Positions 4,432 through 39,712 of a DNA stretch of 45,141 nucleotides are shown here, one piece after another. Below the pieces are notes generated by a model, which worked only from the letters and a program-made list of their open reading frames with translations, did no database searches and was not told where the DNA came from. The position numbers and the translations under genes are program-made. Positions within the stretch are counted from its first letter, which is position 1, and each line of letters opens with the position of its first letter. The DNA comes from Acidobacteriota bacterium (GTDB lineage Bacteria > Acidobacteriota > UBA4820 > DSQY01): positions 1 to 45,141 of the forward strand of contig JBFMHB010000020.1 of the NCBI GenBank assembly GCA_040752915.1, in the 5' to 3' direction.

Positions 4432-5532
4432 GTGAAGATGGCGGCGAGATGGAGCGAATCCGCGCGTCGGGAGGCCCGCTGGACGGTCCTGGCCGTCCTC
4501 GTCGCCCTTTCGATGCCATCGGCCCGGGCGGCGGGTCCCCCGTACGATCCCTCGGAGTACGTGGCCGGGCGCGAGGCGCTGGTCCGGGGGGACGTGGAGG
4601 GGGCGGTTTCGGCTTTCTGCTCCATGCTTCGCCCCGAGGCGGGGAAGCCCCTCTATACGGTGAGCGTGGTGCTCCTCTGCCGCCGGGAGAACCTGCGGGG
4701 CGAGTTCTCCAAACTGACCACCGTCGCCCCCGTCTTCGTCCAAGAGGTGCCCTACAAGGGGCAGATGTGTTACCGGGTCTGCGCCGGGCTGTCCTCGTCC
4801 AAAGGTGACCTTGGGGCGGTCCTGGAAAGGCTCTCTCCCGAGGCTCTGGCTCTGCATCCCTTCGTGACCTCCGTGGCCTGGCCCTGCGGACCTCCCTCTC
4901 GGGGGAACGGAGACAGGGCGGCGGCGGAGGCGCGGGAGGGGGCGCCGGTGGCGGCCCAGGCGGCGGAGATGGGCTCCGGCGCGCAGACCCCGTCCTCTGT
5001 CCCCTCTCCCGATCGCTCCACCCCACCGCCGACGCCTTCTCCCGCGGCGGGCGAATCGCCGGCGGCCTCCTCCGAGGCCTGGTTTCGAAAGGGGCTCGCG
5101 GCCTACGCCCAGGGCCGCCGGGAGGAGGCCGAGGCCTGCTACCGGAAGTCCCTTCAGGCCGCGCCCGGACGACCCGAAGTGCTCAACAACCTGGGCGTCC
5201 TGTGCCTGGAGGACCGCCGCCTCGAAGAAGCCCGGGGGCTCTTCCAGGAGGCCCTCGGCCGGGCGCCCGCCTACGGCCGGGCGCGCCTGAACCTGGCCGG
5301 CGCACTATGGGGGCTCGGGCGCGAGGCGGAGGCCCTCGAGGAGGCTCTGAGAGCGGCCGAACTCGACCCGAAGGACCTGGCGGCCCACCTGACCCTGGCC
5401 TCCTTCTATCTGGCCCGGGGCGAAAAGGTCGAGGCCCTTGCGGAGGCGGAGAAGGTCCTGGCTCTGGATCCTTCCAACGAGAGGGCCCAGGTCTTTGCCG
5501 CCGCCGCCCGGATGGAAGAAGACCACCAGTGA
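4432..5532 (+). CDS. Secreted SPOR-like/TPR repeat protein
   Basis: A 366-residue protein with a signal peptide (about residues 1-34). Residues about 78-122 (YTVSVVLLCRRENL ... CYRVCAG) look like a SPOR-type domain, the fold that binds denuded peptidoglycan. A Pro/Ser/Ala-rich linker (about 150-215) leads to three or four TPR units (about 218-362) with the usual A..Y...G...EA pattern. The gene overlaps the ABC ATPase by four bases (GTGA), so the two are translationally coupled. That suggests a role in the cell envelope together with the exporter. The start is GTG at 4432 or ATG at 4438; ribosome-binding signal GAGAAGG favours neither strongly. The SPOR assignment is by eye and less certain than the TPR one. 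Confidence 0.8.
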   Translation: MKMAARWSESARREARWTVLAVLVALSMPSARAAGPPYDPSEYVAGREALVRGDVEGAVSAFCSMLRPEAGKPLYTVSVVLLCRRENLRGEFSKLTTVAPVFVQEVPYKGQMCYRVCAGLSSSKGDLGAVLERLSPEALALHPFVTSVAWPCGPPSRGNGDRAAAEAREGAPVAAQAAEMGSGAQTPSSVPSPDRSTPPPTPSPAAGESPAASSEAWFRKGLAAYAQGRREEAEACYRKSLQAAPGRPEVLNNLGVLCLEDRRLEEARGLFQEALGRAPAYGRARLNLAGALWGLGREAEALEEALRAAELDPKDLAAHLTLASFYLARGEKVEALAEAEKVLALDPSNERAQVFAAAARMEEDHQ

Positions 5533-6269
5533 CGTGCGCCCTGGAGGTTTCGGGCCTTCGCTTCGCCTACCCCGCCCTTCCAGGCCCGCTGGCGTGGCTG
5601 TCGCGGGGCCCGACCCGGACCCTGCAGGTCCTGGATGGGGTCTCCTTCCGCGTGGATCTCGGCGAGAAGGTCTGCCTCATGGGCGCCAACGGGGCGGGAA
5701 AATCCACCCTGCTCAAGGTGGTTCTGGGCTTCCTGAAGCCGTGCGGGGGGGAGATCCGGTTGTTCGGCCGGCCCGCCGACCGGGAGGGGCGCCGGAGGGT
5801 CGGATACGTCCATCCCGACGAGAGGTCCTTTTACTGGAGGCTGACGGTCCTGCAGAACCTGGAGTTTTTCGGAGGCCTGTGGGGGCTGGACCGGCGGGAG
5901 GCGCGGGCCCGCGCCGCCCTGTGGGCCGAGGAACTGGAGCTGGAGCCGTGGCTCGGGAGGCCCTTCGCGGACCTCTCCACGGGCCTGAGGCAGCGGACGG
6001 CCATCGCCCGGGCCCTCCTGCACGGCCCCGACGTCCTGGTGATGGACGAGCCCACGAGGAGCCTCGATCCTCCCTCGGCGGCCCGCTTCCGCCGGTGGCT
6101 GTCCGAGGGACCCTTGCGGGACAAGGCGGTCCTGCTCTCCACCCACGGACTGGACGAGGCGAAGGCCCTGGGGGGGGCCTGCCTGGTCCTTGCGGGAAGG
6201 CGGCTGGTCTGGCAGGGCGGCCCCCCCGACGAAGAGGCCCTCCGGGGCCTCATGGAGGCGCCGCTGTGA
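5529..6269 (+). CDS. ABC-2 exporter, ATP-binding protein
   Basis: A 246-residue cytoplasmic ATPase that powers the permease encoded next. Walker A is GANGAGKST (52-60), the signature is LSTGLRQR (149-156) and Walker B is VLVMDEP (169-175) with catalytic Glu174. The segment DERSFYWRLT (97-106) is typical of ATPases paired with ABC-2 type permeases for drugs, polysaccharides or antibiotics. The GTG start at 5529 overlaps the preceding stop codon by four bases (GTGA), and the frame is closed further upstream by homology only, so the short form is preferred. The substrate cannot be read from the sequence. The coupling to a SPOR/TPR protein hints at an envelope component. Confidence 0.92.
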   Translation: MTCALEVSGLRFAYPALPGPLAWLSRGPTRTLQVLDGVSFRVDLGEKVCLMGANGAGKSTLLKVVLGFLKPCGGEIRLFGRPADREGRRRVGYVHPDERSFYWRLTVLQNLEFFGGLWGLDRREARARAALWAEELELEPWLGRPFADLSTGLRQRTAIARALLHGPDVLVMDEPTRSLDPPSAARFRRWLSEGPLRDKAVLLSTHGLDEAKALGGACLVLAGRRLVWQGGPPDEEALRGLMEAPL

Positions 6270-7063
6270 AACTCCTCCGGGTGGCTGCGGCGGTGTTGAT
6301 CCGGGACCTGCGACTGGCCCTCTCCTACCGGCTCAACTTCCTCCTCACCGCGGCCGCGGGCGTCTTCAGCACGGTGCTGTGGTATTACCTCTCGGCCTTC
6401 GTCTCCCCGAAGGCGGGGTCCGTTCCCGGAGGGTACTTCGGCTACGTCGTCACCGGGACGGCCCTCCTGGGATACGTCCACGCCGCCCTCCACGGCTTCT
6501 CGCGGAGGTTGAGGGAGGAACAGACCACGGGGACGCTGGAAATCCTCGTCTCCTCGCCGGCCCCCCCCTGGGCCCTCCTCGTGCTTTCCTCCCTCTGGGA
6601 GATGGGCGCGAGAACGCTCGAGGCCGCGTTTCTGCTGGCCGTTGCGGGCCTTCTGGGGCTCCAGGTGCAGGTCGCGCACCCCTGGGCCCTCGTGCCGCTC
6701 GGGATCCTCACGGTGACGAGCTTCGCGGGCCTGGGGATCCTCGCCGCCTCCTTCCTCCTGATCTTCCAGCGCGGGGAGCCCGTCACGCCCTTCGTGGGCG
6801 GGCTGATGGCCTTGCTGGGCGGCGTCTTTTTCCCCCCCGAACTCCTGCCCCCCTCTCTCGCCCTCCTCTCCCGCCTCGTCCCCCTCACCTGGGCCGTGGA
6901 GGGTCTGCGGGGCGTTCTCCTGGAGGGCAAGGGGACGGGGGATCTCGGCGTCGTCTTCGCCGCCCTGGGCCTGTTCACGGCCCTGCTCCTTCCCGCATCC
7001 TTCGTCTACTTCACCTTCGCCCTGAAGGTCGCCCGCCGCCACGGTCTGCTGACGAAGTATTGA
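6266..7063 (+). CDS. ABC-2 type exporter permease
   Basis: A 265-residue integral membrane protein with about six helices. It fits the ABC-2 membrane family: an amphipathic start (RVAAAVLIRDLRLALSYR), a TTGTLEILVSSP turn after the second helix, and a late FFPPELLPPSL loop before PLTWAVEGLRG. It forms the transmembrane channel of the exporter whose ATPase is encoded immediately upstream. The GTG start at 6266 overlaps the ATPase stop by four bases (GTGA). It ends the three-gene unit. Substrate unknown. Confidence 0.9.
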   Translation: MKLLRVAAAVLIRDLRLALSYRLNFLLTAAAGVFSTVLWYYLSAFVSPKAGSVPGGYFGYVVTGTALLGYVHAALHGFSRRLREEQTTGTLEILVSSPAPPWALLVLSSLWEMGARTLEAAFLLAVAGLLGLQVQVAHPWALVPLGILTVTSFAGLGILAASFLLIFQRGEPVTPFVGGLMALLGGVFFPPELLPPSLALLSRLVPLTWAVEGLRGVLLEGKGTGDLGVVFAALGLFTALLLPASFVYFTFALKVARRHGLLTKY

Positions 7064-7210
7064 GGGCGGTGGAAGAAGGAAAGGAACGCCCCCCGCGCCT
7101 TCAAGGATCCCCCGATGCGAAGGACTTGCCGGCGCACCGTGGCCCCGGAGCCGAGACCGCATGGGCCGTCGTCTGGACTTGGCCGTGCCCGTGCCGTGCG
7201 CACGCAACGA

Positions 7211-7238
7211 GCCGCCGGGCCCGTTCCGGTCCGGCGGC
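7211..7238. terminator. Possible terminator hairpin between convergent genes
   Basis: An 11-bp stem GCCGCCGGGCC/GGTCCGGCGGC, with one G-T pair and a 6-base loop, lies between the permease gene (ending 7063) and the leftward lipoprotein gene (ending 7300). Neither side has a good T-run, so termination is uncertain. Confidence 0.35.
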
Positions 7239-7299
7239 CCTCTCGTCGAGGTGGGGGATAGCGGCGGGTGCGGCCTCCCTCACGGGAGCCTGGGTCCGC

Positions 7300-7830
7300 C
7301 TATTCGGCCAGGGGAGCCTTGATGAGGTGCAGGTCGTCGATCCACACGGTCCCGACGCCGTTCACCACCAGGTTCAGCTTCACCGAATCCGGCTTCTGCC
7401 CCTTCTGGAGCCGCAGGGAGGTCTCGGAGGTCGTCCAGTCGGCCGTGCCGCGCAGGGCGTTCTGGTAGTTCTGGGCCGTCACCTCGCCGCCGCCGGGGAA
7501 GTGGACCACCATCTGGAGGTAGGCGTCGCCGCCGAAATCCTGAGCCTTGAGCTTGGCCCGGTAGATCAGGTTGGCGTATTCCACGCCGGGGAAGCCCACC
7601 TCGTAAAGAGAGACGGTGATGGGCACTTCGGTGGCCACCTTGAGGGAGCCGTTCCCGTCCGCCGAAACGGCCTTGTCGAGGGAGACCTGGCCCGGCATGA
7701 GCACGCCGTCGAGGGTGTCCGCGGCATAGGCCTGAATGTCCTTGGGCGGCTCGGGTCCCTTCTTGCAGCCAACGGCCGCGAGGGCCACGGCGAGGGCCGC
7801 CGCGGCGGCCCGGATCCACGTGATCTTCAT
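7300..7830 (-). CDS. Predicted lipoprotein with a beta-sandwich-like domain
   Basis: A 176-residue lipoprotein. The signal peptide ends in a lipobox (LAAVGC, lipidated Cys22). Residues about 32-172 alternate short beta strands and end with [13 protein letters not shown]. That ending is characteristic of jelly-roll, carbohydrate-binding-module-like domains, where the final strand reads 'vwiDdv.l'. The start at 7830 has the ribosome-binding site GGAGGAAACG. A separate gene (7872-8174) lies 41 bases upstream in the same direction, so they may be co-transcribed. Ligand and role are unknown; sugar or peptidoglycan binding is an inference from the fold. Confidence 0.75.
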
Positions 7831-7871
7831 CGTTTCCTCCTCCAGGTACCGATGGTTCGCGAAACGTCCCC

Positions 7872-8174
7872 TCAGTCCAGGTCGATGTCCCTCGGGATGG
7901 GTCCCACGGGACCTTCCTTGGCCTTTTTAAACAGGTCCTGGAACTTCTGCTCCAGCACCTCCTTCTTCGCCTTTTCGGAGCGGATGGACTCCTGGAATTT
8001 CTCCTCGGCCTGGCGCTTCTCCTCGTCGAGGCGCTTGAGGCGGTCCTCGAAGGAGGCCTTCTCGGCGGAGGAGGGCGGGGCCTCGTGGGACAGGACCACG
8101 CGCGCCTCCGCGTCGAGGGTGATGAGGGCCCCGCAGCAGGGGCACGTGACGGTGAAGCGCGCGCCTTCGGACAT
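7872..8174 (-). CDS. Zinc-ribbon/coiled-coil small protein
   Basis: A 100-residue cytoplasmic protein. The N-terminus has CPCCG (11-15), a single CxxC knuckle that could form half of a zinc ribbon, followed by a short beta segment. Residues about 40-88 are a highly charged coiled coil ([20 protein letters not shown] and onward), and the tail is Pro/Asp rich. I chose the ATG at 8174 because the zinc knuckle follows directly; an upstream ATG at 8207 adds only unlikely residues with no ribosome-binding site. It precedes the lipoprotein gene on the same strand. The function is unknown; dimerisation through the coil could complete a shared zinc site. Confidence 0.7.
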
Positions 8175-8325
8175 TCCCAACGCTCCAGGAGACGAAGGAT
8201 AGCACATCCGGGCGGGCGGCGGGAGGGTGCCGAGCAGGCCCGCACCGGGGTGCGCGCGGGGCGGTCCGCTCGCCGGGGCGGGTACCTATCCGCGCTCCAT
8301 CCAGCTCCTGTGCTACCTTGGAACG

Positions 8326-9894
8326 ATGGACGGCCAGGGCGGTCCCTCCCTCCTCGTGCGGGATACGGCGGCGGTGTCGGGGCTCACTCTGCTCAGCCGG
8401 GTGCTCGGATACCTTCGGGACCGCGTGGCGGCGCACCTGTTGGGCACCTCCTTCGCCGCGGACGCCTTCTACCTGGCCTTCCGCATCCCGAACACCGTGC
8501 GCCGGCTCGTGGCGGAAGGGGCCCTCGCGACCGCCGTCGTGCCCGAACTGGTCCGCGCTTCGGCGAGCGGCGGGATGGAGGACCGATCCACTCTCCTTGG
8601 CAGGCGGATCCTGTGGACCTTCGGGACCCTGGCGGGGGCCGTCGGGTTGGCCGGCGTTCTTCTGGCGCCGTGGGTCGTCCGCGTCCTGGCGTGGGATTTC
8701 CGCACCACGGCACCCGAGGCGTACCGTCTGGCCGGAGGGCTGACCGCGGCGCTCTTCCCGTACGTCGCCCTGGCGGGGGTCGCGGCCCTTCTCTCGTCCC
8801 TCCTCCTCGCGAGGGGCGAATTCGCGGTTCCCACGCTCTCCCTTTCCGTCCTCAACGCCACGGTCATCGCGGGCGCGCTCGCGCTGGCGCCGGTGTTGCC
8901 GTCTCCCGCGTGGGCGCTGGCCGGGGCCGTCCTCCTGGGAGGATTCTTCCAGGCGGCCGTCCAGGTTCCGCCTCTCCGGAGGAGGGGGATTCCGCTCGGG
9001 CCGGCCTGGGGCTGGTCGGATCCCGCCGTTCGCCGCCTGCTGGCCCGGGCGGCGCCCGCGGTTTTCGGGGCCGGGGCCTCGCAGGTGATCTTTCTTCTGG
9101 CCACGGTCCTCGCCCACACGGCGGGGGAAGGCTACGTATCGGCCCTGTACTTCGCCAACCGTCTGGAGGAGATCGCGCTCGGGCTGGTGACCGTGCCCCT
9201 TTCCCTGGTGGCCTTGCCGAGCCTCGCGCGGGCGGCCGGGGAGGGCGACCGGGCGCTTTTCCTGGGGACGCTCCGCCGCGTTCTTTCCATGGGCCTCTTC
9301 CTCCTCGTCCCCGCCGCCTCGGGCCTGGCCGTCCTGGCGGGGCCCATCGTTCGCGTGCTTTTCCAGACCGGAGAATTCACGGACCTCTCGGCGGACCTCA
9401 CGGCGGGCCCCGTGGTCTGGCTCGCCGCGGGGCTGGTGCCCTGGGGGGCGGGGGCGCTTCTGGTCCGGGCATCGCACGGGCTGGGCGACGTGCGGAGTCC
9501 CGTGGCCGCGGCACTCACGGCTCTTGGGCTCTTCGCCGTGTCGGGTCCCCCCGCCTGCCGGCTCTGGGCCGCCGAAGGGATCGCCGGTGCGTTCTCGGTC
9601 TCGGGGTTCGTCTACGCGGGGATCCTGGCGTTTTCCTTGCGAAGGCGCCTCGGGCATCCATTCCTGCCGGGACCCGTCTGGTGGGCGCGCCTTCTCGCCG
9701 CCGCCTTCTCCGCGATGCTGGCCGCCACGGGGGCGGCGTGGGTCTGGCCTCCCCGGCCCGGTTGGGCCGGCGCACCCGCCCTCTTCACGGCCGTGGCGTT
9801 GGCCGTTATCCTGTTCTCGGCCCTCGCCTGGGTCCTCAAGATGGAGGAGATTCGGGAGTTGCGGGGCGCCATCGGGAAAGGGACACCGCGTTGA
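8326..9894 (+). CDS. murJ: Lipid II flippase MurJ
   Basis: A 522-residue inner-membrane protein with about 14 helices, the right length for MurJ (MviN), the MOP-superfamily flippase that moves lipid II across the membrane for peptidoglycan synthesis. The N-terminus has the family pattern [17 protein letters not shown], then [22 protein letters not shown]. This matches the conserved 'D.f..afripn..RrlfaEGa' block that lines the central cavity, and the essential Arg and Glu are present. I chose the ATG at 8326 because it places the first helix correctly; the ribosome-binding site is weak. The stop overlaps the TTG start of dtd, so the two are coupled. Confidence 0.93.
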
Positions 9895-28775: not shown

Positions 28776-30080
28776 CTAAAGGACCGAGAGGGCCTCCTCG
28801 AGGTCGGCCATGATGTCGTCGGCGCGCTCGATGCCGATGCTGATGCGGATCCCTCCCGGGTCCAGGCCCGCGGCCACTTGCGCCTCCACGGGAAGGGGAG
28901 CGTGGGTCATGGAGGCGGGGTGTTCGATGAGGGTCCGGATCTGTCCCAGGGAGACCGCCAGGGTCACGGAGAGAGCGTGATCGGCCAGGTGGTCCATCAT
29001 CTTCCGGCCGGCTTCCCGGGCCTGCTCGGGGGTCCCCTTGAGGATGAAGTAGATCATGATGCCCGGGGCGAAGTTCCCATCGGGGTCGAGCATCTGCTTG
29101 CGGGCCAGGGTGTGCTGGGGGTGCGTCGGCAGACCGGGATAGAGCACCTTCGCGACCGCCGGGTGGCCTTCGAGGTAGCGGGCCACCTTGGTGGCCGTCT
29201 CGATCTGCTGGCGGGACCTCAGGGCGAGGGTCGGAAGCCCGTACACGAGGGGCGGCCAGGCGTCCTTGGGGGCGAGGGGCGCGCCGAAGTCCTTGCGGAA
29301 AAGGAGAACGTCGGGCTCGAGCAGGCGGGGGCCGACCCAGACGCCGCCCATGTCCGTTCCGAAGCCGCCCACGTTCTTGGTCAGGGAGGCCACCACGACG
29401 TCGGCGCCAAGAGTGATGGGGCGCTGGCAGAAGGCCGTGGCGAAGGTGTTGTCCACCACGATGAAGATCTTCCGCTTCTTCGGGTTTCTCGCGGCGTTGG
29501 CCCGGTCCACGGCCTGGCGGATCGAGGCCAGGTCCACGATCTCGAGGATGGGGTTGCTGGGGGTCTCGAAATAGACGGCGACCACGTCCTCGGTCAGCAT
29601 GCGCTCGAGGGCCGCCACGTCCTTCATGTCCACGAATTTGGCGGTGATGCCGAAGCGGGGAAGCCAGTTGGCCATGAGGGAGTAGGTGCAACCGTACATG
29701 GTCCGGTGGGCGAGGATCGTGTCGCCGGCCTTGGCGAGCACGCCCAGACTGGCCGTGATGGCCCCCATCCCGGTGGCGAAGCAGACGGCGCACTCCCCCT
29801 CCTCCGCGGCCGCCAGGTTGTCCTCGAGCATGGAGCGGCTGGGTTCGTCGAGGCGGTCGTAGATGTAAATCGGCGGCTGGGTGTGGCGGTTGAGTTCCGG
29901 GTTGGCGAAGGCCTGAAACCCTTGGGCGCCGCGCTCGGCGCTCTCGAGCCGGTAGGCGGCCGAGGCCGAAATGGGCGGGACGATGTGGTCGCGGTAGTCC
30001 CAGTGGGGCGAGTGGAAATCCCCGTGAATGAGGCGGGTTTCCTTGTGGTAGGCGCGCTTCTTGTCTTTCCGGGCGGTCAT
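28776..30080 (-). CDS. Cys/Met-metabolism PLP-dependent enzyme (cystathionine gamma-synthase-like)
   Basis: A 434-residue fold-type I enzyme. The PLP-binding Lys is K235 in ASLTKNVGGFG, D210 in VVDNTFAT contacts the pyridine nitrogen, and the C-terminal VSLGQIRTLIEHPASMTH is typical of the gamma-family (cystathionine gamma-synthase, methionine gamma-lyase, O-acetylhomoserine sulfhydrylase). SLTKNVGG is a minority variant of the usual S.TKY..GH, so the exact reaction cannot be assigned. I prefer the ATG at 30080, with GAGGAGG eight bases upstream; an ATG at 30104 is possible. It is divergent from the radical SAM gene. Confidence 0.88.
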   Translation of the reverse strand: MTARKDKKRAYHKETRLIHGDFHSPHWDYRDHIVPPISASAAYRLESAERGAQGFQAFANPELNRHTQPPIYIYDRLDEPSRSMLEDNLAAAEEGECAVCFATGMGAITASLGVLAKAGDTILAHRTMYGCTYSLMANWLPRFGITAKFVDMKDVAALERMLTEDVVAVYFETPSNPILEIVDLASIRQAVDRANAARNPKKRKIFIVVDNTFATAFCQRPITLGADVVVASLTKNVGGFGTDMGGVWVGPRLLEPDVLLFRKDFGAPLAPKDAWPPLVYGLPTLALRSRQQIETATKVARYLEGHPAVAKVLYPGLPTHPQHTLARKQMLDPDGNFAPGIMIYFILKGTPEQAREAGRKMMDHLADHALSVTLAVSLGQIRTLIEHPASMTHAPLPVEAQVAAGLDPGGIRISIGIERADDIMADLEEALSVL

Positions 30081-30228
30081 CCCCGTGCCCTCCTCGGCGC
30101 TCATTCTACTCCAGTCGGCGGACCGCGCCAGGGTTTTCCGCCTCCGGGGCCGGGGCGTGGGGCAAAATGTGCTATGTTGGGGCGCTGTTTCCGGGCCCGA
30201 AGGTCCGGGAAGAAAGGAAGGACGGATC

Positions 30229-32766
30229 GTGGATCTGGGGTTCTTGAGGTCCGTGGCCAAGCCCACGCGCTACACGGGCGGCGAGGTGAATCAGGCGGTC
30301 AAGGCGGAGCGGGAAGGCCTGCTCCATGTGGCGCTCGCCTTTCCGGACGTCTACGAGATCGCCATGAGCACCCTGGGCCTCAAGATCCTCTACGGGGTGC
30401 TGAACGAGCGGGAGGACGTCTGGGCCGAGCGCGTCTTCATGCCCATGCCCGACATGCAGGAGGCCCTCGAGGCTCGCGGTCTGCCCCTCTACGGGCTCGA
30501 ATCGGGCCGGCCGCTGAAAGCCTTCGACCTGGTCGGGTTCACGCTGCAGTTCGAGTTGACGTACACGAACATCCTCCACATGCTCCGCCTGGGGGGGGTG
30601 CCCCTGAGGGCGGCCGACCGTGGCCCCGAAGATCCCGTGGTGGTGGCCGGCGGACCCTGCGCCGTGAATCCGGAACCTCTGGCCCCCTTTTTCGACGGGT
30701 TCTTCGTGGGGGACGGCGAGGAGGGGATCCTCGACCTGTGCGAGGCGGTCCGGGCTACCCGCGGACGTCCCCGCCGCGACGTGTGGCGCGCCCTGGCCTC
30801 CGTGGAGGGGACGTACGTTCCCGCGCTCTACCGCACGGAACGCGACCCGGCTACGGGAATGGAGGTGGTGACGGGTCCGGCGGAGGAGGGAGCCCCCTTC
30901 CCCGTCCGCCGCCGACTCCTGAGGGACATCGACGCCTTCCCCTTCCCCTCCAAGGTCATCGTTCCCCACCACGAAGTGGTCCACGACCGGTACAGCCTGG
31001 AGCTTTCCAGGGGATGCGCCGTCGGGTGCCGCTTCTGTCAGGCGGGGTACATCTACCGTCCCCAGCGGGACCGGGACGCCGGGGCGGTTCGCGCCGCGGT
31101 GGCGCGAGGGCTCGAATCCACGGGCTTCAACGAGGTGACGCTGTTGAGCCTGAACGCGGGGGAGTACGCGGGGATCGAGCGCCTGGCCCGAGCCATCGCC
31201 GCCGAGGCCGCCGACCGGGGCGTGGGCGTCGCCATGCCCAGCCTGCGCGTGAGCAGTCTCACGCGGGAACTGGTGGGGGCGCTCTCGGCGGGGCGGAAGT
31301 CGGGCTTCACCATCGCCCCCGAAGCCGGGACCGAGCGCCTCAGGGCCGTGATCAACAAGAAGATCTCCGAGGAGGACCTCGTCAACGCCGTGACGGTGGT
31401 CTTTTCCTCGGGGTGGAGCGTCCTCAAGCTCTACTTCATGATCGGACTCCCCACGGAGCGGCCCGAAGACGTGGACGCCATCGCACGCCTGGCGGATCTT
31501 TCGGCCCGGGCGGCCAAGAATGCGGGCTGCCGAAACCCCGTGGTGACGATTTCCACCTCCTCCTTCGTGCCCAAGCCCTTCACCCCCTTCCAGTGGTTCC
31601 CCATGGAAGGCCCGGACTCGCTCCGAGACAAGCAGGCCCGGCTCAAGTCCCTCCTTCGCCGCCCCGCGCAATACCGGTGGCACGACGTGGAGGGAAGCCT
31701 CCTGGAGGGGGCCTTCTCCCTCGGGGATCGCCGGCTGGCCGACGTCCTGGAAGAAGCTTCCGGGCTGGGGTGCCGCCTCGACTCCTGGACCGAGCACTTC
31801 CGGCCCGATCTCTGGAGGGAGGCCTTCTCCCGAAAGGGCCTGACTCCGGAGGAATACCTCCACCGGGAGCGGGGCCGGGAGGAGCGCTTCCCGTGGGAGG
31901 TGGTGGACGTCGGGGTGACGCGGTCCTTCCTGTGGCGGGAGCGGGAGAGAGCCCTGGCGGGGGAAACCACCGAGACCTGCGGCCCCGAGGCCTGCCACGG
32001 CTGCGCCCCCTTCGCCAAGGACTGCCTCGCGAGCGTCTTCGCCCGCGCGCTTCCAAAGGAGGCCGCCTCGGTCCCCCGTCCTCCGGTACCGGCGCCCGCC
32101 CGCCATCGGCTGCGGTTCCGGAAGGAGGGGCCCTCCGTTTTTCTGGGGCACCTCGACCTCACGGAGGCCCTCGTCCGGGCCCTGCGCCGCGCCGGAGCCG
32201 CCCTGGCCTATTCGCAGGGGTACCACCCCATGCCCAAGATCGAGTTGTGCGCGCCCCTCCCTCTGGGCGTGGAGGGGAGGGAGGAGTGGATGGACTTCAC
32301 GGCCCACGTGGGGGACCGGGGGCTCTTCCTGGGGCGCCTCGCCGCCACCCTCCCCAGCGGCATCCTCGCCGAGCGCCTGTTTCCCGTTCCGGAGGGCTCG
32401 CCTTCGCTCTCGGAACTCGCCCTCCAGGTCTATGAAGTGGGGCTCGGCCGCCTGGACGAGGCGGAGCGGGCCGAGGTCCGGCGGAGAGCCGAGGCCTTCC
32501 GGGCATCCGAATCGTGGCCCGTCACCCGGGAGGGGAAAGGAAAGACCCGCACCTTCGATCTTCGGGCCCGCGTCCAGGGTCTGGAGGTGGAGGAGGGCCG
32601 CATCGAAGTGCGGCTCCTCCAGGGGGGCTTCATGGACCTGGTGGAGGCCGTCGCGCCCGAGCCGCTTCGGGACCGCCTCTCCCTGGTTCGGTTGGGTCTC
32701 CGTTTCGCCCCCCGGCCCGCCCCGCCCCCCGCCCAACCCGCGTCGAAGGGGCGCGCGGAGCGTTGA
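30229..32766 (+). CDS. TIGR03960-type radical SAM protein fused to DUF2344
   Basis: An 845-residue protein. Residues about 1-230 are an N-terminal domain resembling a B12-binding fold with no obvious cobalamin His motif. The radical SAM domain follows with the 4Fe-4S motif CAVGCRFC (near residue 265) and GFTIAPEAGTERLRAVINK later on. Near the C-terminus, from about residue 620, is a DUF2344 domain with FLGHLDLTEALVRALRRAG, YSQGYHPMPK and LPLGVEG. In many bacteria the two parts are separate neighbours of RNase G, here encoded a little downstream. The GTG at 30229 follows AAGGAAGGA. A role linked to ribosome or RNA maturation is inferred from that linkage. Confidence 0.9.
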   Translation: MDLGFLRSVAKPTRYTGGEVNQAVKAEREGLLHVALAFPDVYEIAMSTLGLKILYGVLNEREDVWAERVFMPMPDMQEALEARGLPLYGLESGRPLKAFDLVGFTLQFELTYTNILHMLRLGGVPLRAADRGPEDPVVVAGGPCAVNPEPLAPFFDGFFVGDGEEGILDLCEAVRATRGRPRRDVWRALASVEGTYVPALYRTERDPATGMEVVTGPAEEGAPFPVRRRLLRDIDAFPFPSKVIVPHHEVVHDRYSLELSRGCAVGCRFCQAGYIYRPQRDRDAGAVRAAVARGLESTGFNEVTLLSLNAGEYAGIERLARAIAAEAADRGVGVAMPSLRVSSLTRELVGALSAGRKSGFTIAPEAGTERLRAVINKKISEEDLVNAVTVVFSSGWSVLKLYFMIGLPTERPEDVDAIARLADLSARAAKNAGCRNPVVTISTSSFVPKPFTPFQWFPMEGPDSLRDKQARLKSLLRRPAQYRWHDVEGSLLEGAFSLGDRRLADVLEEASGLGCRLDSWTEHFRPDLWREAFSRKGLTPEEYLHRERGREERFPWEVVDVGVTRSFLWRERERALAGETTETCGPEACHGCAPFAKDCLASVFARALPKEAASVPRPPVPAPARHRLRFRKEGPSVFLGHLDLTEALVRALRRAGAALAYSQGYHPMPKIELCAPLPLGVEGREEWMDFTAHVGDRGLFLGRLAATLPSGILAERLFPVPEGSPSLSELALQVYEVGLGRLDEAERAEVRRRAEAFRASESWPVTREGKGKTRTFDLRARVQGLEVEEGRIEVRLLQGGFMDLVEAVAPEPLRDRLSLVRLGLRFAPRPAPPPAQPASKGRAER

Positions 32767-32833: not shown

Positions 32834-33643
32834 TTGAGACGGACGAGGTTCCTCTTTCAGGCGGCGCTGGTGGCCGCGGCCGCGGGGGCCGGGTTTGCCT
32901 ACAGCCGGGGGTGGCTTCTGGGCAGCGTGGAAAAGTACTGCCCCTTCGGCGGACTCGAAACGGCCTACGCCTTCGTCACCAACCAGCGCTTCACCTGCGC
33001 GGCGGGGGAGCTGAACCTGGCCTTGTTCGTGGCCCTTCTGGGGCTCACCTTCGTGGCGCGCAAGGCCTTCTGCGCGTGGGTCTGCCCCGTGGGGACCGTC
33101 TCCGAATGGCTGGGCCTCCTCGGCGAGAGACTCTTCCGAGCGGGCCGCAAGGAGGCGTCCGGCGCTCCTCTCCGGGCTCTGGAGCCGCCGCGGAGCGCCG
33201 ACCGCGTCCTCCGCTGGCTCCGGCTGCCGGTCCTGGCCATCGTCCTCTATTTCACGTACAAGACGGGGGAACTGGTGTTCCGCGGCTACGACCCCTATTA
33301 CGTGCTCTTCAGCTTCCACGGCCACGACGTGCGCGGGTGGAGCTACCTCCTCGTGGCGGTCCTCCTCGCGGCGGCGGTGGCGGTCCCCATGGCCTGGTGT
33401 CGGTACTTGTGTCCCCTCGGATTGGCCTTGTGGCCCTTCTCGGCGGTTGGCCGGCTGCGGTTGAGGCGCGACGCCGAGACCTGCACCTCCTGCCGGGCCT
33501 GCGACCGGGCCTGTCCCCACGCCATTCTGGTTTCCACGGCGGGGGAGGTGAGGTCCGGTGAATGCACGCTCTGCCTGGCCTGCGCGGACGCCTGTCCGGC
33601 GGGCGAAACCTTGACCTTGCGGTTGAAGGCGCTCAAGCCGTGA
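32834..33643 (+). CDS. Membrane 4Fe-4S protein (NapH/NosR/CcoG-like)
   Basis: A 269-residue membrane protein with about four or five helices. Membrane-side cysteine motifs are KYCPFGGLET (near 38), CAWVCPVGTVSEW (near 80) and CRYLCPLGL (near 190), the CxxxCP pattern of polyferredoxins such as NapH, NosR and CcoG. Two classical 4Fe-4S clusters follow at the C-terminus: CTSCRACDRACP and CTLCLACADACP. It probably moves electrons across or along the membrane. The TTG start at 32834 follows AAGGGAGACC. The gene overlaps the next one by four bases (GTGA), so a joint function with two small HMA-like proteins is likely. Confidence 0.88.
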   Translation: MRRTRFLFQAALVAAAAGAGFAYSRGWLLGSVEKYCPFGGLETAYAFVTNQRFTCAAGELNLALFVALLGLTFVARKAFCAWVCPVGTVSEWLGLLGERLFRAGRKEASGAPLRALEPPRSADRVLRWLRLPVLAIVLYFTYKTGELVFRGYDPYYVLFSFHGHDVRGWSYLLVAVLLAAAVAVPMAWCRYLCPLGLALWPFSAVGRLRLRRDAETCTSCRACDRACPHAILVSTAGEVRSGECTLCLACADACPAGETLTLRLKALKP

Positions 33644-34065
33644 GAGTCCCCATGGCCGCCGTGCCCGCCCTCGTGGTCCTCTTTGCCCTGGCGGGCCTTG
33701 GGTCCGCCCGGTTCTTCGCCGTTCCCACGCTGACGAGGGACTTTGCGGCGGGCGGGGGGAGCGCCCTCAGGACGTCTTCCTTCCGGGTGGAAGGCCTGAA
33801 GTGCCGCGACACCGCGGAGAAGGCTTTCGAGCACCTCGATGGCCTGCAAGGCCTCGGGCGGGCCGAAGCCTTCGCCTCTCGAAACGAGATCCGCCTGACC
33901 TACGACCCATCCGTGACCGGCCCCCAGGCCATTCGGGAGGCCCTCGAGGGCCCCGAGTTCGACCCCGCCACCGGGGAGATTTGGTTCGGGCGCTTTCGCG
34001 TGATAGAAATAGACGGGAAGCCCCTTCCAGTGGGGACGGGGAGTGCGTCCTCCGGGGCACCGTAG
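33640..34065 (+). CDS. Membrane-anchored protein with degenerate heavy-metal-associated fold
   Basis: A 141-residue protein. One N-terminal helix (about 5-28) anchors an external domain. Residues about 45-110 (SFRVEGLKCRDTAEKAF and onward to GPQAIREALEGPEF) follow the beta-alpha-beta-beta-alpha-beta pattern of HMA domains. The usual metal-binding CxxC is reduced to one Cys (GLKC..T). The last strand reads GRFRVIEIDG. The GTG start at 33640 overlaps the 4Fe-4S protein stop; an ATG at 33652 is the alternative. A redox or metal-relay partner of the 4Fe-4S protein is inferred from coupling only. Confidence 0.7.
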   Translation: MRVPMAAVPALVVLFALAGLGSARFFAVPTLTRDFAAGGGSALRTSSFRVEGLKCRDTAEKAFEHLDGLQGLGRAEAFASRNEIRLTYDPSVTGPQAIREALEGPEFDPATGEIWFGRFRVIEIDGKPLPVGTGSASSGAP

Positions 34066-34085
34066 TCCGTAGAGGGAGATTGCAC

Positions 34086-34478
34086 ATGAGGTCGAATCTG
34101 CGCGTGTGGGTGCTGGTCCTGTGTGCCGCCGTGTTGGCCGGGGCGGTTCTCGCCGCCGACCCGGCGCCCGCCGCCGGTCAGGAGACGGCGGTCTTCGAAG
34201 TGGCCAAGCTGTCCCAGGGTACCGTGGTCAAGGACCTGGCGGGGGCCCTCGCCAAGGAGCCGGGCGTGGTCAAGGCGAAGGCGGATCTGGACCAGGGGCT
34301 TTTCTCCGTGACCTTCGAGCACGGAAAGACCAATCCCGAGGTCCTCGCCAAGGTGGTGAACGCCGTCGCGGGCGAATCGAAGCTGAAGGAAGTCGTCGCC
34401 GCTCCAGGCGGAGCGAAGGCCGCCTCGGGTTGCGGGGCGTGCCCCAGCCGGAGCACCTGCTCCTCCAAGAAAAAGTAG
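34086..34478 (+). CDS. Secreted HMA-like protein with Cys-rich tail
   Basis: A 130-residue protein with a signal peptide (to about residue 23). Residues about 34-100 again look like an HMA fold (FEVAKLSQGTVVKDLAGAL, then VKAKADLDQGLFSVTFEHGK), but with no Cys in the normal CxxC loop. Instead the tail holds CGACPSRSTC. The start at 34086 has GGGAGA upstream and follows the previous gene by 20 bases. The cysteines thus appear to have moved to the C-terminus. The pair with the upstream HMA-like protein and the membrane 4Fe-4S protein suggests a small periplasmic metal or electron relay, not assigned to any known system. Confidence 0.72.
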   Translation: MRSNLRVWVLVLCAAVLAGAVLAADPAPAAGQETAVFEVAKLSQGTVVKDLAGALAKEPGVVKAKADLDQGLFSVTFEHGKTNPEVLAKVVNAVAGESKLKEVVAAPGGAKAASGCGACPSRSTCSSKKK

Positions 34479-37241: not shown

Positions 37242-37826
37242 TTGAGGATCGTCGGCGGGGATCTGAGGGGGCGAAGGCTGGACGTCCCGCGGGGCATGGA
37301 CGTGAGGCCCACGTCTGAGAAGGTCCGCGAAGCCCTCTTCGACATTCTCGGTTCGCGTGCGGCGGGCGTGGTGTTTCTGGACCTGTACGCGGGGACGGGT
37401 GCCGTGGGCCTCGAAGCCCTGAGCCGGGGGGCCGCGGGCGCCGTGTTGGTGGAAAAAAGCGCGAGGGCGCTGGCGGCCCTCCGGTCGAACGTGGAGCGGC
37501 TGGGGGTCGGCGGCCGGTGCCGGGTTCTGCCCGTGTCCTCCGAGAAGGCCCTGCGGGTCCTTTCGGAGGAGGGGGCCGCGGTGGGCGTGGCCTTCTGCGA
37601 CCCGCCCTATGCCGATCCGGGCTGGCCGGACCTTCTCGGCCGGCTGGCCGCCTTCCCGATCTGGGTCCCTCCGGGAATCCTGGTCGTGGAGTCCGCCGCC
37701 AGGTCATTGCCTGCGTGTCCCGCGGGCTTCGAGGCGGGGAGAACCTATCGCTACGGGGACACCGCCCTGTCCGTGTATCGGTTCTCGGACGAGCGGGCCG
37801 GCCTGTCTCGGGAGGCGACGCCATGA
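37242..37826 (+). CDS. rsmD: 16S rRNA (guanine966-N2)-methyltransferase RsmD
   Basis: A 194-residue SAM-dependent enzyme that methylates G966 of 16S rRNA. The N-terminus RIVGGDLRGRRL and RPTSEKVREALFDIL are family signatures. The SAM-binding motif is FLDLYAGTGAVGLEALSRGA (from residue 45) and the catalytic motif is DPPY (120-123). The start is TTG at 37242, with GGGAGG just upstream; the family normally begins 'mRI..G..rGr.l'. It overlaps selB by four bases (ATGA). Confidence 0.93.
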   Translation: MRIVGGDLRGRRLDVPRGMDVRPTSEKVREALFDILGSRAAGVVFLDLYAGTGAVGLEALSRGAAGAVLVEKSARALAALRSNVERLGVGGRCRVLPVSSEKALRVLSEEGAAVGVAFCDPPYADPGWPDLLGRLAAFPIWVPPGILVVESAARSLPACPAGFEAGRTYRYGDTALSVYRFSDERAGLSREATP

Positions 37827-39712
37827 GGGACGTGGTGGTTGGAACGGCGGGGCATATCGACCACGGGAAGACCCTTCTGGTGAAGGCCCTCACGGGAATC
37901 GACGCGGACCGGTGGGAGGAGGAGAAGCGGCGCGGCATCACCCTGGACATCGGATTCGCCACCCTCGAAACCCCGGAGGGGGCCCTCCACTTCGTCGATC
38001 TTCCGGGCCACGAGCGCTTCATCAAGAACATGCTGGCCGGGGCCACCGGAATCGACCTCTGCCTCCTGGTGGTGGCGGCGGACGAGTCGGTCATGCCCCA
38101 GACTGTGGAGCACGTTGAGATCCTCGGGCTCCTCGGCGTGTCCCGCGGGGTCGTGGCCCTGAACAAGGTAGACCTCGTGGATGTGGAAACCCGCGAACTG
38201 GCCCTCTTGGAGCTCTCCGAATTCCTGGACGCCCACGGCCTCGGGCACCTTCCCGTGGTTCCCGTCAGCGCCGCCTCCGGAGAGGGTCTGGAGGCCCTGC
38301 GGGAGGCCCTGTTCCGGGAGGCCGCCCTGTGCCCCGAACCCCCGGCCGACCGGCCCTTCCGTCTGCCGGTGGATCGCACCTTCCCCGTGAAGGGCTTCGG
38401 CACGGTGGTGACGGGAACCTGCATCGACGGCTCCTTGAAGGTGGAGGACCCGGTGGAGGTCTTTCCCCAGGGCTGGGAGAGCCGGGTTCGCGGGCTCCAG
38501 ATCTTCGGCAAGCCGGTGGAGGCGGCCCGGGCGGGCCAGCGGGTGGCGGTCAACCTCTCGGACATCCACCACGCGGACCTGAGGCGCGGACATCTTCTGG
38601 CCCGTCCCGGGACGGTGTGGCCCACACACCTCCTGGACGTGCAGCTGACCGTCCTGCCCTCGGCGAAAAGGCCCCTCAAGACGGGCGCGATCTGCACCCT
38701 CCACCTCCACACCCAGGAGGTGGAGGCCCACGTTCACCTCGCGGATGCCGGGGCCCTGGCGCCCGGGGAGGCGGGTCTGGCCCAGATTCGCTGCCCGGAG
38801 AAGGTGAGCGCCTGGCCCCAGGACCGGTTCATCCTCCGACTGCCCTCCCCGGCGCGGACCGTGGCCGGCGGCGAAGTCCTCCTTCCAGCCCGTCGCCGTG
38901 CTCGCTGGAGGCGTGAGCGGGACCGCGCCGTGGGCCAGGCCCTTCTGGGGAAGGATGCCCTGAGGGCCATGCTCGTGGAGGCCGGTCCCGCCGGGATCCC
39001 CCCGAAGGACGGCTTGGCCCGCCTCGGGGTGACGCCCGGGCGTTTGGCAGCCCTTGCGTCGGAGGGAGAGAAGGCTGGAAACCTGGTTCGGTGGGGAGAA
39101 GGGACCTGGTGGCTCGATGCGGGGGAGGCCTCGGGGTGGTTGGACCGCGCCGCGGCCTGGCTGAAGGCGCGCCATGCGGGGAAGTCGCCCGTGGATTCGA
39201 TCCCACGCCAAGAACTCCTGGGCCGGTGGAGCCGGATGCTCGGTGCGGCCCGCTGCGAAGCGCTCCTTCAGGCCCTGGTGGCGGCGGGGCGCGTGGAATT
39301 GGACGGGGACAGGGTGCGTCCCGCCGGCCACCGCGTGACCCTAACGCAGCCCCAGCGGGCCGCATGGGACGGGATCCTGCAAAGGCTGGCCGAGGCCGGC
39401 ACGCCCGTCCAGACGGGCAAGGAACTGGAGGAGGCCTTCGGGCCGGCCGCACGGCAGGTCTTGCCCCTGCTCGCGGCGGAGGGCCGATTGCGCCGGTTCG
39501 GGGGAGATTTCTTCATCGCGCCCGCCACCCTGGACACCCTCCGTCTGGCCCTGGCCGCGTGGGGGAAGGGCAAGTCGCCCCTCATCGCGGTGCCCGACTT
39601 CAAGGACCTGTTGGGCATCACCCGCAAGTACGCCATGCCTCTCCTGGAGTTCCTCGACGAAATGAAGTGGACCCGGCGGGAGGGAGAGGGGAGGAGGATC
39701 CTGGTCTCCTGA
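37823..39712 (+). CDS. selB: Selenocysteine-specific elongation factor SelB
   Basis: A 629-residue GTPase that delivers Sec-tRNA to UGA codons marked by a SECIS hairpin. G1 is GTAGHIDHGKT (7-17), followed by the RGITLDIGF switch I, DLPGHE and NKVD. The beta-barrel domains follow, and the C-terminal winged helices (about 370-629) that bind the mRNA hairpin are present. The ATG at 37823 has GGGAGG upstream and overlaps the rsmD stop. It shows that the organism uses selenocysteine, although no selA, selD or selenoprotein was recognised in this window. Confidence 0.95.
   Translation: MRDVVVGTAGHIDHGKTLLVKALTGIDADRWEEEKRRGITLDIGFATLETPEGALHFVDLPGHERFIKNMLAGATGIDLCLLVVAADESVMPQTVEHVEILGLLGVSRGVVALNKVDLVDVETRELALLELSEFLDAHGLGHLPVVPVSAASGEGLEALREALFREAALCPEPPADRPFRLPVDRTFPVKGFGTVVTGTCIDGSLKVEDPVEVFPQGWESRVRGLQIFGKPVEAARAGQRVAVNLSDIHHADLRRGHLLARPGTVWPTHLLDVQLTVLPSAKRPLKTGAICTLHLHTQEVEAHVHLADAGALAPGEAGLAQIRCPEKVSAWPQDRFILRLPSPARTVAGGEVLLPARRRARWRRERDRAVGQALLGKDALRAMLVEAGPAGIPPKDGLARLGVTPGRLAALASEGEKAGNLVRWGEGTWWLDAGEASGWLDRAAAWLKARHAGKSPVDSIPRQELLGRWSRMLGAARCEALLQALVAAGRVELDGDRVRPAGHRVTLTQPQRAAWDGILQRLAEAGTPVQTGKELEEAFGPAARQVLPLLAAEGRLRRFGGDFFIAPATLDTLRLALAAWGKGKSPLIAVPDFKDLLGITRKYAMPLLEFLDEMKWTRREGEGRRILVS

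Follow-up and report, generated by a model that had tools for sequence, protein, structure and literature searches.

A recurrent bacterial gene unit joining a NapH-like membrane polyferredoxin to HMA-like proteins with an unusual cysteine pattern

The membrane proteins NapH/MauN (TIGR02163), NosR, and RdhC/PceC have a common four-helix core with two CX3CP motifs (PMC5928378). CcoG/RdxA and YccM are likewise membrane polyferredoxins, and the CcoG polyferredoxin reduces Cu(II) (PMC7558416). In Archaeoglobus, Cu(II) is reduced by CopZ, which is fused to an Fe-S domain (PMC7558416). The PepSY_TM proteins are ferrisiderophore reductases (PMC13038864).

We analyzed a stretch of 45,141 nucleotides from an Acidobacteriota bacterium (contig JBFMHB010000020.1; hereafter, the window), in which a gene for a NapH-like polyferredoxin is followed by two genes for small HMA-like proteins. 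These genes represent a real and conserved unit that apparently has no name yet and falls within the membrane polyferredoxins of the NapH/CcoG kind. No relevant report on a NapH-HMA system was found in the literature searched (most subscription papers lay outside its scope).

The three-gene locus and its polyferredoxin

The features of the locus are the following:

32834..33643, + strand: protein 1, a NapH-like membrane polyferredoxin of 269 aa with a TTG start (TIGR02163, Fer4_5, Fer4_10, alignment A3)
32939..32998, + strand: extra Cys pair of protein 1, C36 (CPFGG) and C55, in a predicted extracytoplasmic loop (invariant in A3)
33071..33088, + strand: first CX3CP motif of protein 1 (C80, C84; invariant in A3)
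33398..33415, + strand: second CX3CP motif of protein 1 (C189, C193; nearly invariant in A3)
33461..33598, + strand: C-terminal 2x[4Fe-4S] ferredoxin domain of protein 1 (Pfam Fer4_10, residues 210-255)
33640..33643, + strand: GTGA, overlap between the stop of gene 1 and the start of gene 2 (sequence)
33640..34065, + strand: protein 2, a membrane-anchored one-Cys HMA-like protein of 141 aa with a GTG start (phmmer to the HMA domains of ATP7B/CopA; profile A1; homologous domain modelled)
33646..33702, + strand: single transmembrane anchor of protein 2, residues 3-21 (hydropathy)
33802..33804, + strand: C55, the sole Cys of protein 2, in the motif GxxC-x-[D/G]-[T/S] (context GLKCRDTAE)
34086..34478, + strand: protein 3, a secreted HMA-like protein of 130 aa with a Cys tail (profile A2 to the HMA domains of CopA/MerP; AlphaFold; Foldseek)
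34431..34460, + strand: C-terminal tail of protein 3, CGACPSRSTC, i.e., CxxCPx4C (conservation of C116, C119, P120, and C125)

Direct reading of the open reading frames bore out the original prediction in its gene order, in the GTGA overlap, and in the 20-base gap between genes 2 and 3, and equally in the single Cys of protein 2 (C55) and the CGACPSRSTC tail of protein 3. The start sites of the homologues coincide with the unusual TTG and GTG starts of genes 1 and 2, which supports these starts. The N-terminus of protein 3 is signal-like, and the Cys residues of the mature part are confined to the tail (C116, C119, and C125).

Protein 1 is best described as NapH-like, with a score of 81.3 bits against TIGR02163 (napH_), which is below the curated NCBIfam threshold of 213. 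The Pfam family Fer4_5 matched with 52.1 bits, and Fer4_10 was also matched. The two CX3CP motifs and the two C-terminal [4Fe-4S] motifs of the NapH kind are present (A3; Pfam Fer4_5/Fer4_10), the latter as in NapH and NosR (PMC5928378). The score against the CcoG family TIGR02745 was 23.3 bits, with a cut-off of 316.7. No napA/napG or mau genes were found among the ORFs read around the unit, and a Foldseek search with the model of the fusion protein from locus L007 returned no good match to the NapH-like core among the solved structures.

Every one of the 22 complete HMA-linked NapH loci has the extra Cys pair (C36/C55), and each of the 24 unlinked NapH relatives lacks it, in a set that was collected with protein 1 alone (one genome per species) and is uncorrected for phylogenetic relatedness. 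Because these loci were found by protein 1 alone, the comparison is not biased by the search for HMA proteins. The pair follows helix 1 and is predicted to lie on the outer face, since the CX3CP motifs and the ferredoxin domain of the NapH-like family are taken to be inside.

HMA likeness and cysteine pattern of the small proteins

Judged by Pfam alone, the HMA likeness of proteins 2 and 3 is weak: they scored 14.6 and 13.4 bits, respectively, against PF00403 (HMA), under the gathering score of 24.8, and weak sub-threshold matches were likewise obtained for 15 of 16 members of the protein 2 family and 9 of 12 members of the protein 3 family. Family profiles were built from 16 sequences for protein 2 (A1) and 12 sequences for protein 3 (A2). 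A1 matched the tandem HMA structure of CopA (1p6t) with E=1.4e-15 and single HMA domains with values of 1e-8 to 1e-5, and A2 matched 1p6t with 2.9e-11 and MerP (1osd) with 5.6e-6. The very low values against ATP7B are sums over its six repeated domains and are not single-domain evidence. The AlphaFold model of protein 3 has the order beta-alpha-beta-beta-alpha-beta, with a pLDDT of about 84 in the domain and disordered ends that include the tail, and Foldseek ranked MerP (1osd) first for it (TM 0.85 by target). For protein 2, the homologous domain was modelled within the natural NapH-HMA fusion of L007 (pLDDT 85.6 overall and 93-97 in the HMA part, pTM 0.74), and the structures closest to this HMA part were MerP and CopZ (Foldseek). 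With family profiles and models combined, the predicted HMA-like character of both proteins is firm. The folds proposed originally were thus recovered, for protein 3 in a model of the protein itself and for protein 2 through the L007 homologue and the profiles.

Proteins 2 and 3 have the fold and the sequence family in common with the HMA domains of MerP, CopZ, and CopA (PF00403). In place of the canonical CxxC of these domains, however, protein 2 has Cxx[T/S], and protein 3 has no such motif at all but carries CxxCPx4C at its C-terminus. The MerP family TIGR02052 gave 12.3 and 27.4 bits against a curated cut-off of 92.55, and its CxxC was also lacking. The best NCBIfam match of protein 2 was the UxxU metal-binding (seleno)protein family NF041115, with 17.7 bits against a cut-off of 95 and the motif CxxT, which is neither UxxU nor CxxC. 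The curated cut-offs rule out membership in the NapH, CcoG, MerP, and UxxU families.

A selenoprotein reading of these genes, which the UxxU match and the SelB encoded in the window would bring to mind, was ruled out by the lack of any in-frame TGA. The selB gene itself (37517-39712, + strand; TIGR00475, 334 bits, cut-off 242) lies 3 kb downstream of the trio, and because of its presence the window organism probably makes selenoproteins. No tRNA genes were found in the window. We also observed that genome G000 (98% complete) has no protein at the PF00403 score with E 0.001, which is unusual, as 13 of 14 control genomes have one.

In the protein 2 family, all 57 NapH-linked sequences retain the first Cys of CxxC and have Thr or Ser at the position of the second. 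The only CxxC sequence of the comparison set belongs to an HMA protein that is unlinked to NapH, and one later family member (L155) has Arg in place of the second Cys. The conservation of Cxx[T/S] rules out a random decay of the HMA motif. It had been proposed that the domains lack the canonical CxxC and are degenerate. The absence was confirmed, but the degeneracy was not, as the family has a conserved Cxx[T/S] that is paired with the two extra Cys residues of the NapH-like protein.

In the protein 3 family, C116, C119, and P120 are invariant, and C125 is present in all members that are not ended by a contig edge (A2). Two further trios agree on these tail Cys residues, so that their conservation, a check suggested at the outset, extends beyond the family alignment. 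The spacing CxxCPx4C is that of the known [4Fe-4S] motifs in the N-terminus of NBP35/NUBP1 and in SPASM. Those sites, however, are cytosolic and have a fourth Cys, whereas protein 3 has three and is exported by a Sec-type route. With only three Cys residues and Sec-type export, a metal site or disulfides would be as likely for the tail as a [4Fe-4S] cluster. The loop pair of protein 1 and the HMA Cys of protein 2 constitute three invariant thiols, which are predicted from the sequences to lie on the outer face, opposite the inner side of the Fe-S electron carrier.

Several family members had MerP, a MerTP fusion, or the UxxU selenoprotein as their best NCBIfam match, all far below the cut-off. 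These matches would fit a system for the handling of mercury or another toxic soft metal that is related to MerTP. We consider such a system very improbable, because the second Cys of the motif is absent, the loci read contain no mer genes or MerR-type neighbours, and the genes are stably chromosomal in many genomes of the Zixibacteria phylum and are not carried there by plasmids. Plasmid-borne resistance was itself ruled out, as the fusion form from Bacteroidota (see below) had no match in 72,556 plasmids.

Recurrence, architectures, and gene neighbourhood

The scan with protein 1 (one genome per species) yielded 49 loci. An HMA-like protein was directly downstream or fused in 22 of them, 24 were ordinary NapH relatives without HMA, and 3 were cut by a contig end; for one of the latter (L009, genome G304), the remainder of the unit turned up at the beginning of a different contig. 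Strong members of the HMA profile were found in 6 of 297 Acidobacteriota genomes, in 21 of 118 genomes from the phylum of L013 (Zixibacteria record), in 4 of 47 from that of L002 (Eisenbacteria), in 3 of 8 from that of L003 (CSSED10-310), and in 1 of 193 from that of L008 (Myxococcota). With an Alistipes fusion as the query, 9 of 247 Bacteroidota genomes were positive, and L006, L007, and L012 add records labelled Deltaproteobacteria, Wallbacteria, and Calditrichaeota. A protein 2-type HMA that adjoins or is fused to a NapH-like protein occurs in dozens of genomes from seven or more phyla. The NapH-like gene adjoins the HMA gene in 19 of the 20 Zixibacteria-phylum loci read; L137, from the same phylum, has a CxxT HMA gene without a detectable adjoining NapH-like frame, which may reflect a frameshift, a problem of the contig, or a true loss. 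Within the window's own family the distribution is patchy (present in G000, G002, G005, and G007; absent from G001, G003, G004, G006, and G008).

The full trio was found in 14 genomes (window, G002, G005, G007, G052, G075, L001, L002, L003, L006, L007, L008, G871, and G304), and the third protein carries the Cys tail in each of them. A duo without the third gene is present in the Zixibacteria-phylum genomes and in L011, L012, and L014. Proteins 1 and 2 are fused in frame in L006, L007, L008, G304, and G867. The 4-base overlap of the GTGA type recurs in L002-L005 and L051-L053, with fusion taking its place in L006-L008. In Bacteroidota and in one Acidobacteriota genome (G069), a polypeptide of ~650 aa combines the NapH core with a one-Cys HMA-like domain and more HMA-like stretches without conserved Cys; three HMA-like stretches were counted in these polypeptides by eye. 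The architecture of the locus is not due to chance, as its gene order, its overlap, and its Cys pattern are found again in different phyla. The linkage of the trio, whose absence from other genomes would have refuted the original proposal, does recur, but the recurring core in most lineages is the duo or fusion of the NapH-like and one-Cys HMA proteins, to which the tailed protein is added in one lineage group. Gene overlap and natural fusions argue for a putative fixed complex of the NapH-like and HMA-like proteins.

In the window, a radical SAM gene and an RNase G-like gene lie on either side of the trio, which has no metal-related neighbours. The ORF directly upstream (30061-32766, + strand) is a fusion of a B12-binding radical SAM protein (TIGR03960) with its TIGR03936 partner. 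The trio seems to be inserted into a common gene order of radical SAM and RNase G-like (downstream ORF) genes. No neighbours were common to the trio loci: a cluster for NrfD and multiheme cytochromes was present only in G002 and G005, and the other loci differ.

In these two relatives the trio comes directly after the NrfD/multiheme cytochrome cluster, and NapH, NosR, and PceC, which have a common membrane core, donate electrons to periplasmic enzymes (PMC5928378). The unit could accordingly supply electrons to a respiratory enzyme or to another redox enzyme of the periplasm, and its HMA-like domains would then serve only for docking, like the FMN domain in NosR/PceC. This role is improbable, since no partner enzyme recurs in the trio or duo loci and docking leaves the Cys that is invariant in 57 of 57 linked members unexplained.

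The same cytochrome neighbours bear on the main rival to a role in metal reduction, a thiol-disulfide reductase. Electrons from the Fe-S clusters would reach first the loop Cys pair and then, by thiol exchange, the HMA Cys and the three-Cys tail; some protein outside the cytoplasm would in this way be kept in its reduced state, alongside DsbD/CcdA. A Cys pair and a single Cys make a plausible exchange chain, the trio of G002 and G005 lies beside the cytochrome cluster, and the duo of L011 adjoins ccsA, resB, and multiheme cytochromes, whose maturation needs reduced thiols. We nevertheless regard this function as rather unlikely: the fold is that of a metal chaperone and not of thioredoxin, the cytochrome neighbour is not consistent across loci, and 27 of 28 genomes examined encode DsbD/CcdA-type proteins (PF02683), regardless of whether they have the unit. 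The latter count also rules out that the unit replaces DsbD/CcdA. The L011 duo (4905-9426), directly beside ccsA, a ResB-like gene, and multiheme cytochromes, was the only such case seen. Elsewhere, an RND-type efflux ORF (L161, 13-3108) and, on the opposite strand, a cation-diffusion-facilitator-like ORF (L162, 1146-2234) were noticed by eye near the unit.

The Bacteroidota loci have a different context. In Alistipes, the fusion comes after genes for a TonB receptor, DUF4876, DUF6850, and fimbrillin-like proteins. In other Bacteroidota, it lies near ABC/permease/DUF4857 genes in 3 of 8 loci and near DUF4920 and PepSY_TM-like genes in 3 of 8, often with an M16 peptidase gene beside it. The Alistipes genes from the TonB receptor to fimbrillin have counterparts in the cluster BT3625-33 of Bacteroides thetaiotaomicron, where two PepSY-type genes come after fimbrillin, with an ABC ATPase and DUF4857 beyond them; iron limitation raises the expression of this cluster 36 to 128 fold (PMC10434189). 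The Bacteroidota fusions form a branch distant from the window trio (their NapH part is about 30% identical), and the metal context would carry over to the trio only indirectly.

Proposed function and comparison with known systems

A periplasmic redox or metal relay, as was originally proposed, remains our inference, and we tentatively favour an extracytoplasmic metal reductase or relay for Cu or Fe. The Fe-S clusters would take up electrons on the cytoplasmic or quinol side and pass them across to an outer-face site in which the loop Cys pair is combined with the Cys of the HMA domain. At this three-thiol site, a thiophilic metal ion would be reduced and held, either as Cu(II) to Cu(I) or as a ferric complex. 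The HMA-like domain is tethered outside by an extra helix, often within the NapH polypeptide, and in the window organism the secreted, tailed protein 3 may receive the product or carry it onward. Such a mechanism would be analogous to the CcoG cupric reductase combined with a hand-over from MerP to MerT, or would be a heme-free counterpart of the PepSY_TM metal reductases.

This metal role is favoured by the conserved three-thiol pattern coupled to Fe-S motifs, the HMA fold of both small proteins, and the natural fusions, and the Bacteroidota gene context tips the balance from a disulfide to a metal substrate. Several points count against it: the trio of the window lacks metal-related neighbours, the Bacteroidota context comes from a distant branch, an HMA domain with a single Cys makes a poor chaperone for Cu(I), and HMA domains are not known to bind iron. 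A general role in supplying copper to heme-copper oxidases was ruled out, as many genomes that carry the unit (G297, G299, G301, G303, G304, G306, G308-G311, and G624) lack PF00115 (heme-copper oxidase). It is possible, though doubtful, that the unit represents an undescribed class of polyferredoxin reductase, with HMA, normally a passive metal chaperone, as a fixed subunit and a three-thiol, Fe-S-driven site, that occurs in seven or more phyla in the form of a duo, a trio, or a fusion and replaces the heme-containing PepSY proteins in the metal acquisition of Bacteroidota. Genes annotated as iron-sulfur binding protein and hypothetical protein can now be grouped into a single, definable family whose residues are open to testing. 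Should the metal role hold, it would provide a heme-free, Fe-S-driven route of extracytoplasmic metal reduction in gut Bacteroidota and uncultured phyla, and would show a metal-chaperone fold rebuilt as a fixed redox subunit.

Among the described systems, NapH, NosR, and RdhC differ from the unit, which has the extra outer-loop Cys pair and an HMA-like partner or fusion, with no adjoining nap, nos, or rdh genes. CcoG has a periplasmic Ig-like domain where the extracytoplasmic domain of the unit is HMA-like in the model; unlike CcoG, the unit occurs in many genomes without a heme-copper oxidase. In CopZ of Archaeoglobus, an Fe-S carrier is joined to HMA as in the unit, but this protein is soluble and cytosolic, has an intact CxxC, and lacks a membrane core. 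The PepSY_TM reductases (FoxB, FpvG, and CrpH) occupy a comparable place in the iron-starvation cluster of Bacteroidetes and carry out transmembrane metal reduction at the outer face; in contrast to the unit, they use membrane heme and have no sequence relation to it.
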